NCBI GenBank assembly: GCA_028866435.1
Contig: JAGWIC010000027.1
Location: 1 to 36,480 of the forward strand
DNA from: Lysobacteraceae bacterium
GTDB lineage: Bacteria > Pseudomonadota > Gammaproteobacteria > Xanthomonadales > Rhodanobacteraceae
Length of the DNA: 36,480 nucleotides
Direction: 5' to 3'
In this document: positions 34,147 to 36,480 of the stretch, piece after piece
Position numbering within the stretch: the stretch's first letter is position 1
How the letters are laid out: every line of letters begins with the position of its first letter
Made by a program: the position numbers and the translations under genes
Notes under the pieces: model-generated
What the model was told of the DNA's origin: nothing
The model's input: only the letters and a program-made list of their open reading frames with translations
Database searches by the model: none

Positions 34147-34156
34147 CTGGTGCCAC

Positions 34157-34171
34157 TGGCGGAGAGGGTGG
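34157..34171 (-). other. Attachment site: 3' end of a tRNA-Ser gene
   Basis: Read on the minus strand the 15 bases are CCACCCTCTCCGCCA, that is, four T-stem bases, the 7-base acceptor arm of a tRNA starting GGAGAGG, discriminator G and CCA, as in tRNA-Ser. Beyond this the sequence departs from any T-arm (no TTCGAATC), so the gene body is missing here. With an integrase gene 170 bases away, this is the left attachment site of an integrated element. Confidence 0.8.
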
Positions 34172-34340
34172 CTGTCCGCCCAACTTACCTAGATATCCCT
34201 GCGCGTACCTACACGCACGCAACCGCCCATATCCATTGGTGCACATGGTTTCCTGACGTACCTAATCATCCCTTGACAACCCCGTGCAGCGCGCGCATTG
34301 TGTATGGCATGGAGAATGGAACGGGAAGTTAGGCGGACAG
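34172..34340. repeat. Inverted repeat pair bracketing the integrase control region
   Basis: CTGTCCGCCCAACTT (34172-34186), touching the attachment site, is repeated in inverted orientation at 34326-34340 as AAGTTAGGCGGACAG, with 14 of 15 positions matching. The second copy ends one base before the integrase ATG and covers its ribosome binding site. Three direct copies of TACCTA lie within or beside this interval (34186-34191, 34206-34211, 34259-34264). Confidence 0.8.
34273..34301 (+). promoter_or_regulatory. Possible sigma-70 promoter of the integrase gene
   Basis: A perfect TTGACA (34273-34278) is followed after 17 bases by CATTGT (34296-34301), a poor -10 match (3 of 6). The expected transcript starts about 34 bases before the integrase ATG and would carry the right-hand inverted repeat in its leader. 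Confidence 0.5.
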
Positions 34341-34341
34341 T

Positions 34342-35592
34342 ATGCCCAAGCACGTCAAGCCCCTCACCGCAGTGAGCATCAAGACCAAGCCGCCGGGCAT
34401 GCACGGCGACGGCGGTTGCCTGTATCTGGCGGTGAAGCAGAAGGGCGAGATCGGCTCATGGGTTTTTCGCTACCGCGACCGCGTGACAGGCAAGCTGCGC
34501 GACATGGGGCTGGGCCAGGCGCTCGGCAGGCACTCCCCGGTGACGCTGGCCGAGGCGCGCGCACTGGCAGAGCAAATGCGGCGCATGCTGCGCGAAGGCA
34601 GAGACCCCCTCGCTGAAAAGCACAGCGCGCGCGCCAAGGCAAAGACCGAGCACGCCAAGCGGATGCCGTTCGGGCGCTGCGCCGAGCTGTACATCGAGGC
34701 GCACCGCAGCGGCTGGCGCAACCCGAAGCACGCCGCGCAATGGGATGCCACCCTGCGCACGCACTGCGAGCTGATATGGGCCATGCCGGTGGACGCCATC
34801 GACACCGCGCTGGTGATGCGCTGCCTTGACCCGATATGGACCACCAAGACCGAGACCGCCAGCCGCCTGCGCGGGCGCATGGAGTCCGTGCTGGCCTGGG
34901 CGACCGTGCGCGGTCTGCGCACTGGCGATAACCCGGCAGCGTGGCGAAATCACCTGGATCAACTGCTACCCGCGCGCAACAAAGTTCAGAGGGTCGAGCA
35001 CCGCGCAGCTCTGCCCTACGCCGAGGCTGCAACGTTCATAGCCGAGCTGCGCCAGCGGGACACCCTCGCTGCCCGCGCGTTGGAGCTGCAGATTCTGACC
35101 GCGACACGGCCTGGCGAAGCTGCCGGCGCGCAATGGCCCGAGTTCGACCTGGACGGCGCTATCTGGACGATACCGGCCGACCGGATGAAGGCAGGCAAAG
35201 AACATCGGGTGCCGCTAGCGCCTGCCGCGGTGAAGCTGCTGCAGGCCTTGCCGCGGGTCTCTGACAACGTATTCCCCGGTGTCAAGGGCAAACCGATAAC
35301 CACCGATGCCGCCATGAAGCTGTTGAAGCAATTGCGCCCCGGCCTGACCGCGCACGGCTTCCGATCGACCTTCCGCGACTGGGCTGCCGAAGTCACCAAC
35401 CACCCGCGTGAAGTCATTGAACAGGCCATGGCGCACCGCCTGAAGGATGCCGCCGAGGCCGCCTATCAGCGCGGCGACCTGCTGCAGCGCCGGGCTGTGC
35501 TGATGAAGGACTGGGCCGGCTACTGCGGCACCGTGCGAACCACTGGCGACAACGTGATGCCCATCCGGGCGTCTGAAAAGAATCGGGCCTAG
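34342..35592 (+). CDS. int: Tyrosine-type site-specific integrase (P4/DUF4102 family)
   Basis: A 416-residue phage-type recombinase. The N-terminal arm-binding domain (DUF4102-like, about 1-95) contains SIKTKPPGMHGDGGCLYLAV and VFRYRDRVTGKLRDMGLG. A core-binding helical domain follows (about 105-205). The catalytic domain has R256 (ILTATRPGEAAGAQW), K283 or K286 (DRMKAGKEHRVPL), H338 and R341 (LTAHGFRSTFRDWA), H365 (MAHRL) and the nucleophile Y375 (AAYQRGDLLQRRAVLM). All residues are present, so it should be active. The ATG at 34342 follows AGGCGG. Elements with this integrase class commonly use tRNA 3' ends, in accord with the tRNA-Ser remnant 170 bases upstream. Confidence 0.95.
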   Translation: MPKHVKPLTAVSIKTKPPGMHGDGGCLYLAVKQKGEIGSWVFRYRDRVTGKLRDMGLGQALGRHSPVTLAEARALAEQMRRMLREGRDPLAEKHSARAKAKTEHAKRMPFGRCAELYIEAHRSGWRNPKHAAQWDATLRTHCELIWAMPVDAIDTALVMRCLDPIWTTKTETASRLRGRMESVLAWATVRGLRTGDNPAAWRNHLDQLLPARNKVQRVEHRAALPYAEAATFIAELRQRDTLAARALELQILTATRPGEAAGAQWPEFDLDGAIWTIPADRMKAGKEHRVPLAPAAVKLLQALPRVSDNVFPGVKGKPITTDAAMKLLKQLRPGLTAHGFRSTFRDWAAEVTNHPREVIEQAMAHRLKDAAEAAYQRGDLLQRRAVLMKDWAGYCGTVRTTGDNVMPIRASEKNRA

Positions 35593-35610
35593 CCCGGTAA
35601 CGCGCCGGCA

Positions 35611-35630
35611 CCGGGTGTAGCAGCACCCGG
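35611..35630. terminator. Hairpin downstream of the integrase gene
   Basis: CCGGGTG (35611-35617) and CACCCGG (35624-35630) form a 7-bp perfect stem with loop TAGCAG, 18 bases past the integrase stop. There is no T-tract, so it is at most a weak terminator. Confidence 0.5.
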
Positions 35631-35668
35631 GCCGACTTCCAAAAACCGCTCTACAGAGGAGAGCAGCA

Positions 35669-36052
35669 ATGGCAAACGCAGCATACAACCCCACCACCAC
35701 ACGCGTTCCGCCCTCCATGGTTACCGGGCCGAACTGCATTACTGTGCCAATTGGCAACGATTTCACCCGGGGCCGGCATAGCTTCCAAGCCGGTGATCTC
35801 ATGGTGGTTGATCTGGACGCCGTGCCGAAGCACGACGACTTTGTCATCGTCATGGCGCAACGTGGCCCATTTGGTAGGGTTTGCGACGTGCCCCCAGCAG
35901 ACGGGCAGTCGCGTGATCGCATGGTTATGGGGGTGCTTGATTCTGATGGCGAGACCATGCACTTCATCGATCTCGGCGCAGGTGGACGCGCGTTCGGGGT
36001 GGTGACTGGCGTCATTGCTGGCGACAAGTCCAGCAGGAGGTTGGCGGCATGA
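35669..36052 (+). CDS. Small element protein, distantly S24/LexA-like
   Basis: A 127-residue protein of unknown function. The ATG at 35669 has GAGGAGAG eight bases upstream. The middle and C-terminal parts, FQAGDLMVVDLDAVPKHDDFVIV then MVMGVLDSDGE and FGVVTGVIAG, are reminiscent of the beta-rich S24 peptidase fold of LexA and phage repressors (GDLvlVd, then G-vvgv). The usual Ser-Lys pair is not evident and there is no helix-turn-helix, so any link is structural at best. It is the first gene of a packed run in the element: its TGA overlaps the next start codon in an ATGA junction. Confidence 0.72.
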   Translation: MANAAYNPTTTRVPPSMVTGPNCITVPIGNDFTRGRHSFQAGDLMVVDLDAVPKHDDFVIVMAQRGPFGRVCDVPPADGQSRDRMVMGVLDSDGETMHFIDLGAGGRAFGVVTGVIAGDKSSRRLAA

Positions 36053-36231
36053 CCACGGAAACCCAGAAGTCGGACCAGTTGGACGCGTTCTTCCTGGGCT
36101 GGGTGGCGCGCATGGAACGGCTGCGGTACCGGCCACCGACAACTGAGGAGTTGCTGCGCGCTGCCGAGCTGCGCGGGCCGACGCCGGACACTCTGGTCGG
36201 CGACCTTCCGCTGGCTGGCGCCGCGCCGTAA
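36049..36231 (+). CDS. Small hypothetical protein of the integrative element
   Basis: A 60-residue protein, MTTETQKSDQLDAFFLGWVA followed by a basic helix and a Pro/Leu-rich end. No family is recognised. The start overlaps the stop of the upstream gene (ATGA), and its TAA overlaps the next ATG (TAATG), which supports real translation as part of an operon. Confidence 0.6.
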   Translation: MTTETQKSDQLDAFFLGWVARMERLRYRPPTTEELLRAAELRGPTPDTLVGDLPLAGAAP

Positions 36232-36308
36232 TGGCCGGACGCAATCGCAAGGATGGAACGGGCGCCCTGGTGGCGCCCGAGGCGATTGAGGGCATGAGGC
36301 ATGGCTAA
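36231..36308 (+). CDS. Possible 25-residue peptide gene
   Basis: The frame starts at the ATG overlapping the previous stop (TAATG at 36229-36233) and ends in TAA at 36306-36308, inside the start of the next gene. The peptide is MAGRNRKDGTGALVAPEAIE plus GMRHG. It could be a true micro-gene or only a coupling leader that carries ribosomes to the next ATG at 36301, which it overlaps by 8 bases. Confidence 0.35.
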   Translation: MAGRNRKDGTGALVAPEAIEGMRHG

Positions 36309-36480
36309 GCTACCGGCATTCGATGAGAGGCTATCCGAGGCGATCTTGCATGCGCCGAGCGATCCCGAAGCCGCCGCTAGGGTGCTCAAGGAGATCGCCG
36401 GATACCTGCGCCGCATGTCCGAGTGGACGAAAAGCGGTCACGTAGAGCTGCCGGTGGACGCCGCCGAATACCTGGCCGAT
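36301..36480 (+). CDS. Hypothetical element protein, partial (3' end beyond window)
   Basis: Sixty codons are visible without a stop, beginning MAKLPAFDERLSEAILHAPS and continuing with DPEAAARVLKEIAGYLRRMS, an amphipathic helical stretch, then VELPVDAAEYLAD. No family is recognised. A GAGG sequence lies just before the ATG at 36301. It overlaps the 25-codon frame and continues the compact gene run of the element. Confidence 0.55.
   Translation, partial: MAKLPAFDERLSEAILHAPSDPEAAARVLKEIAGYLRRMSEWTKSGHVELPVDAAEYLAD

Follow-up and report, generated by a model that had tools for sequence, protein, structure and literature searches.

How a sequence lying directly against the tRNA scar of an integrated element comes to stand again, inverted, at the start of that element's own integrase gene is the question raised by this locus. 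In the window, by which we mean the whole 36,480-nt stretch of Lysobacteraceae DNA analysed here, a repeat search found inverted arms at 34172-34189 and 34323-34340 (18 nt, 89% complementary). The 15-mer part of this repeat (Table 1) is matched at 14 of 15 positions, and a single T (34341) separates the end of the second arm from the int ATG at 34342, exactly as the first-pass annotation had it. None of 3,000 dinucleotide shuffles of 34172-34345 gave an inverted repeat of equal edge-to-edge quality, and none of 400 gave any inverted repeat of such quality in the region; the whole inverted repeat is real and no product of chance. Besides the two arms, the window holds no match to the 15-mer with fewer than three mismatches, the single match with three lying at 2135, while the genome's contigs hold four other matches with two mismatches, none of them on C27, the contig that carries the right end of the element. 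The analysis below leads us to regard the inverted repeat as two separate features, not as a single device with covarying arms: on the best reading, the scar-side arm would lie inside the tRNA-Ser attachment core, and the ATG-side arm would be a separate recurrent motif, a half-site of the tRNA-Ser end (TNGGCGGA).

Table 1. Features at the left end of the element, in window coordinates unless C27 is named
Feature	Position	Strand	Basis or remarks
attL scar, tRNA-Ser(CGA) 3' end, TGGCGGAGAGGGTGG	34157-34171	+	identical 15-mer at intact tRNA-Ser on C27
Parts of the attL scar	34157-34163; 34164-34170		half-site TGGCGGA; probable 7-bp crossover GAGGGTG; then G
First arm, CTGTCCGCCCAACTT	34172-34186	+	inner flank of core; TCCGCC at 34175-34180, inverted to TGGCGGA, 11-bp spacer
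Predicted int promoter	34273-34301	+	TTGACA 34273-34278, 17-nt spacer, CATTGT 34296-34301; by eye, window and aligned relatives
Direct-repeat pair, 12-bp period, ATGGCATGG / ATGGAACGG	34302-34323	+	putative P' arm-type Int sites, at about +1
Second arm of inverted repeat, CTGTCCGCCTAACTT on - strand	34326-34340	-	repeat search, mismatch scan, shuffles
Core-type half-site motif, TTAGGCGGA	34329-34337	+	GGCGGA enrichment at int starts; spacing to direct repeat
P4-type tyrosine integrase gene, 416 aa	34342-35592	+	Pfam domains
Left part of ~9.7-kb integrated element	34157-36480	+	continues on C27:1-7398; attR C27:7384-7398

The integrase has three Pfam domains, all scoring above cut-off (Arm-DNA-bind_3 PF13356, 59.8 bits; Phage_int_M PF22022, 94.8 bits; Phage_integrase PF00589, 48.1 bits), and the scar upstream of its gene has one other perfect match in the genome's contigs, the 3' end of the intact tRNA-Ser(CGA) on C27. 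The window's contig ends at 36480. Because record L016 overlaps both the last 1,569 nt of the window (99.94%) and the first 2,113 nt of C27 (100%), the element most likely continues from one to the other, running from 34157 to C27:7398 over ~9.7 kb. L016, near-identical to the window and C27, comes from a MAG labelled Acidobacteriota; probably one or other genome was binned wrongly. The cargo consists of int, an AAA_25 protein and terminase-like frames (terminase being named by eye); the one piece of these frames that was scanned gave no Pfam match. Related elements measure about 6 to 14 kb from scar to scar, and in the other eight elements the left and right ends agree, by eye, over TGGCGGA plus 7 nt.

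A tyrosine recombinase core is expected to consist of two half-sites in inverted orientation, separated by 7 bp. We compared related integrase loci, beginning with the 145 of 146 that had a usable match; loci with less than 60 nt upstream or with short proteins were dropped to leave 137, and dereplication at 90% identity left 126, the window included. Start codons throughout are calls made in this analysis. In 98 of the 126 loci the + strand carries TGGCGGA at a distance of 100-300 nt before int, and CCGCC follows just inside the + strand scar in 42 of those 98, at 7-bp spacing in 35 and at 11-bp spacing in three. The inverted half-site pair at the scars of relatives therefore identifies the window's first arm as the inner flank of the core, with an unusual spacing: its inner TCCGCC lies at 11 bp, as in L141 and L114, where 7 bp is usual, which makes the core half-site label less sure for this arm.

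The motif in the ATG-side arm recurs at the integrase starts of relatives. Between -30 and +20 of the int start, GGCGGA is present on the + strand in 25 of the 126 dereplicated loci and on the - strand in one, compared with 12 of the 536 starts of other ORFs at these loci (Fisher p = 3e-11, shared descent ignored); background 50-nt windows carry it on the + strand in 1.2-4.6% of cases, depending on region. Plotted by position along the + strand, its matches are most numerous at the scar and form a second peak from -20 to +10, with two between -130 and -30. In a 6-mer scan over -30 to +20 it ranked fourth, behind three arm-repeat words of the TGGGTA type, and in the 30 upstream nucleotides alone it ranked eighth (13 of 126 vs 4 of 536). 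Among other P4-type integrases it is found at the int start in 1 of 69 loci, taken from among the matches listed (30 given and 39 chosen largely for their frame length and the completeness of the match); 43 of the 69 have a tRNA beside the integrase, none of them Ser. A second, class-wide sample gave 1 of 25, the 25 remaining from 30 after the window's own paralog L301 and L305, L309, L312 and L313 were dropped; some start codons in it look doubtful (e.g., L289). The start motif reads TTTGGCGGA in the near relatives L115, L116, L119, L120, L123, L125, L127 and L128, TTCGGCGGG in the own-genome paralog L141 (80%) and TTTGGCGGT in L148. The matches in L085 and L158, 11 nt into the ORF, are probably due to chance; both were kept in the counts and dropped from the anchored alignment, which holds 23 of the 25 motif loci.

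Between the core and int the window carries the direct repeats ATGGCATGG and ATGGAACGG, which match at 7 of 9 positions. A direct-repeat pair whose period is 11-13 bp, in most cases 12, and whose match is at least 7/9 lies upstream of the int start in 76 of the 126 loci, compared with 2.5% of shuffles. The start motif begins a median of 14.5 bp (IQR 14-16, SD 3.9) after the second direct repeat, and its distance to the ATG in the same 20 loci has a median of 9 bp (IQR 3-14, SD 9.2; Levene p = 0.003). This statistic includes L158 and leaves out L018, L091 and L127, whose direct repeat falls below 6/9, as well as L161 and L085, in which no repeat was found; spacings of 18 to 28 bp returned by the repeat finder for L028, L158, L155 and L070 were kept. 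In L021, L022, L024 and L160 the motif starts within or after the called start codon, and the distance of 13-14 bp to the repeat is retained. A distance kept to the direct repeats, and not to the ATG, points to a bound protein and argues against a ribosome-binding site.

These distances bear on the alternative that the ATG-side motif is ribosome-binding and start-codon context only, its likeness to the tRNA-Ser end being accidental. We consider this unlikely, although it remains a live rival because in six loci (L026, L127, L128, L028, L043 and L091) the final A of the motif doubles as the first base of the called ATG. The bias toward the + strand and the closeness to the ATG would also follow from it, and some versions of the motif contain GGAG or GGAGG; however, GGCGGA is rare at other ORF starts of the same loci, the spacing is tighter to the direct repeats than to the ATG, the motif starts in or beyond the called start codon in L021, L022, L024 and L160, and the window's version is, by eye, a poor Shine-Dalgarno match.

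The direct repeats themselves are most likely arm-type sites of Int, a reading by analogy, since the phage P4 record annotates the same plan. RDF sites may be direct repeats too, according to the portion of PMC7498355 consulted, and the pairs described here may be RDF sites instead. Repeat words of 8-19 nt recur in like orientation 59-77 nt inside the distal end in six of nine elements, the window among them (L113, L141, L120, L123, L125 and L148); for the window these are the 8-nt words GTGTATGG and GTATGGCA, found on C27 at 76 and 62 nt inside the right end. As 8-nt words are near chance over 200 nt, the shuffle control was confined to the 40 nt concerned. Of 1,000 right-end shuffles, none was as good for L120, L125 or L148, one for L141, 10 for L123 and 14 for the window, so that the distal recurrence beats at least 98.5% of shuffles in six of nine elements; L114 (71), L116 (83) and L115 (317) did no better than shuffles. 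The distal-repeat score averaged 10.2 for own pairs and 6.0 for mixed pairs. For the window by itself the distal recurrence is of moderate strength, resting as it does on 8-nt words. In place of distal recurrence, L114 has an inverted word that is also found near the core, and in L116 CCGTTGGG and CGGAGACA are shared but placed differently.

The two arms do not behave as one unit. In 11 loci, own pairs of arms scored 6.00 and mixed pairs 5.43 (p = 0.05; p = 0.18 without the window), and the covariation that the first-pass annotation had proposed to look for is not borne out. The 75%-identical relative L114 (the same gene as L013) keeps the core-side arm and lacks the ATG copy, making it the kind of homologue that the annotation had itself named as evidence against linked arms; the exact start motif is absent from 101 of the 126 loci, this one among them. 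Nor was the anticipated copy of the 15-mer found at the right end, GGCGGA or its complement being present in none of nine elements within 200 nt inside that end. On the integrase tree the start-motif label takes 20 changes (shuffled mean 23.1), at least 12 of them forced by starred branches, a count that suggests frequent gain and loss and that is inflated, near-variants of the motif having been scored as absent; clustering on the tree is weak, with 16 of 500 shuffles as low. This patchy presence, together with the missing covariation, favors a reading by chance or history, in which 6-7 bases of the leader motif happen to agree with the tRNA end and the 14/15 match arose by local coincidence or by a conversion event that serves no function. 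Such an origin is likewise unlikely in view of the enrichment, position and group specificity of the motif and of the shuffles, which the whole inverted repeat in the window surpasses.

Both arms might instead be excisionase (RDF) sites, comparable to the TorI sites GTTCG, GATCG or GTCCG of KplE1, where RDF sites near -35 are described, in the part of PMC2951348 available to us, as repressing int. GTCCG is contained in CTGTCCGCC in both arms of the window and occurs at the start motif of L115, L119 and L125 as well. The part in common is nevertheless TNGGCGGA, since L116, L120 and L123 keep TCCGCC without GTCCG at the start, and a few Pfam scans identified no RDF gene, so we hold this reading to be quite improbable. 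Control at the RNA level, by pairing of the arms in read-through transcripts that hides the int start, is very improbable: both arms do pair in the predicted fold of 34150-34360, and stem-loops in the int 5' UTR of ICEKp1 attenuate int according to the excerpted PMC13023037, but the fold is unremarkable (z -1.08, with 27 of 200 shuffles folding equally well; leader alone, z +1.79), the arms do not covary, and a leader transcribed from the predicted promoter would carry one arm only, which also tells against the leader RNA pairing suggested at the outset.

The idea that both arms couple recombination to repression of int is therefore supported only in part: there is no covariation, L114 does without the second copy, none is found at the right end, and RNA pairing is unremarkable. 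What stands of it is the ATG-side site at the leader. This arm had been read as a recombinase-like site covering the int start, and it does resemble a recombinase site, recur in relatives and overlie the int leader.

A site of attP type at the start of int has a precedent. In the phage P4 record (GenBank X51522), attP arm repeats are annotated as a direct pair upstream of int, two more beyond the core and an inverted copy spanning the int start, so this layout, for which the first-pass annotation knew of no standard description, is in general terms already on record. The window resembles P4 in having a pair of putative 12-bp direct arm repeats closely upstream of int, repeated distally, and an attP-type repeat at the int start; it differs in the identity of that last site, which in P4 is the inverted arm repeat GTGCCCCCA, whereas the window and part of its relatives have the core-type half-site. 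The P4 arrangement is common elsewhere: the ATG carries an inverted copy of the upstream, promoter-proximal repeat in 35 of the 69 other P4-type loci vs 7.3% for mixed pairs (29 of 55 after dereplication), and in 11 of 25 loci of the second sample vs 7.4% (p = 6e-7). Across these loci (L179-L247 and L288-L317, with various tRNA targets) the inverted motif varies between elements and is consistent within each. A score of at least 8 for an inverted arm repeat at the int start is reached by 8 of 126 loci but not by the window, and an inverted repeat from promoter to ATG was rejected as a rule of its group (8 of 126 vs 4.7% by chance). Copying of an element's own tRNA end to the start of other P4-type integrases was likewise rejected for the loci whose tRNA lies on the int strand (2 of 41 direct and 0 of 41 inverted; chance 1.4-1.5%). 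The core-type half-site in the int leader is best read as a real and recurrent variation on the known P4 layout.

Anatomy, recurrence, spacing and enrichment in this group of integrases are matters of observation; function is a matter of interpretation. The reading that we prefer, with somewhat better than even confidence, is that the ATG-side arm would be an extra core-type half-site beside the P' arm repeats, acting as an operator for repression of int by Int. Its sequence would be that of the tRNA-Ser 3' end which the integrase recombines, and it would lie ~14 bp downstream of two P' arm-type repeats, over the leader and start of int. Int would hold arm sites by its N-terminal domain and core sites by its C-terminal part, so that the two arms may look alike because both resemble the half-site recognised by the catalytic domain. 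Int that binds the arm repeats and the half-site on the leader could block transcription or translation of int, in negative autoregulation. A site downstream of the transcription start would fit a roadblock or blocked translation, and the section of PMC6237814 at hand reports an elongation roadblock by a bound regulator for Kpn2I. More tentatively, and at odds that we would put clearly short of even, the site may be a decoy core half-site that derives from the target tRNA end, has been repeatedly gained or lost among tRNA-Ser integrases, and replaces the inverted arm site of P4, the grip of the recombination complex itself serving as the operator.

Repression of int from attL sites has been described for KplE1. 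In the available portion of PMC2951348, the tRNA-linked attL of KplE1 overlaps the int promoter, with P'1 at -10, and IntS represses its own gene in vivo; negative autoregulation is reported for IntS, IntC, IntF and IntL and not for IntD and IntH. The same portion states that mutation of the main core of attL left IntS repression unchanged, and puts repression down to sites near -35 and -10. The window is alike in being tRNA-linked and in that its int promoter, predicted from sequence alone, lies between core and ATG, overlaps the attL-site region and adjoins the direct repeats; it differs in having a leader half-site, which that portion does not mention for KplE1. The promoter of intI of PAI I536, a P4-like integrase, is said in the extract of PMC7286903 that we used to be autorepressed; this system differs in its IHF dependence, and the extract describes no core-like start motif.

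The amount of integrase determines whether islands and satellites remain or depart. The attP-type site at the start of int, already known from P4, is of arm type in about half of the sampled P4-like genes and of core type in a share of those at tRNA-Ser, the core-type half-site being what is new here. It offers a concrete operator for mutation and a means of finding out whether, when the target changes, the regulatory site changes with it.

Some further features of these elements were noted. A search for the right ends of three tRNA-Leu elements by their tRNA end gave one match per genome and was abandoned. At the right ends of the tRNA-Ser elements, a crude pattern search found an A-run and a GC stem, terminator-like, just before the tRNA 3' end in six of nine elements (L250, L253, L248, L254, L276 and L259 being among those checked), as if the element gave the tRNA a new terminator. 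The terminase-like protein at L283:5835-7306, named by eye, is apparently split over two reading frames, by a frameshift or an assembly error. Between core and promoter, L120, L123 and L125 carry GTCCG/GTTCG words near -35 that by eye resemble the TorI sites of KplE1 and are possible excisionase sites. In L125 the ATG of int is preceded by the half-site motif twice in tandem (GGCGGACGCTAGGCGGAGG).
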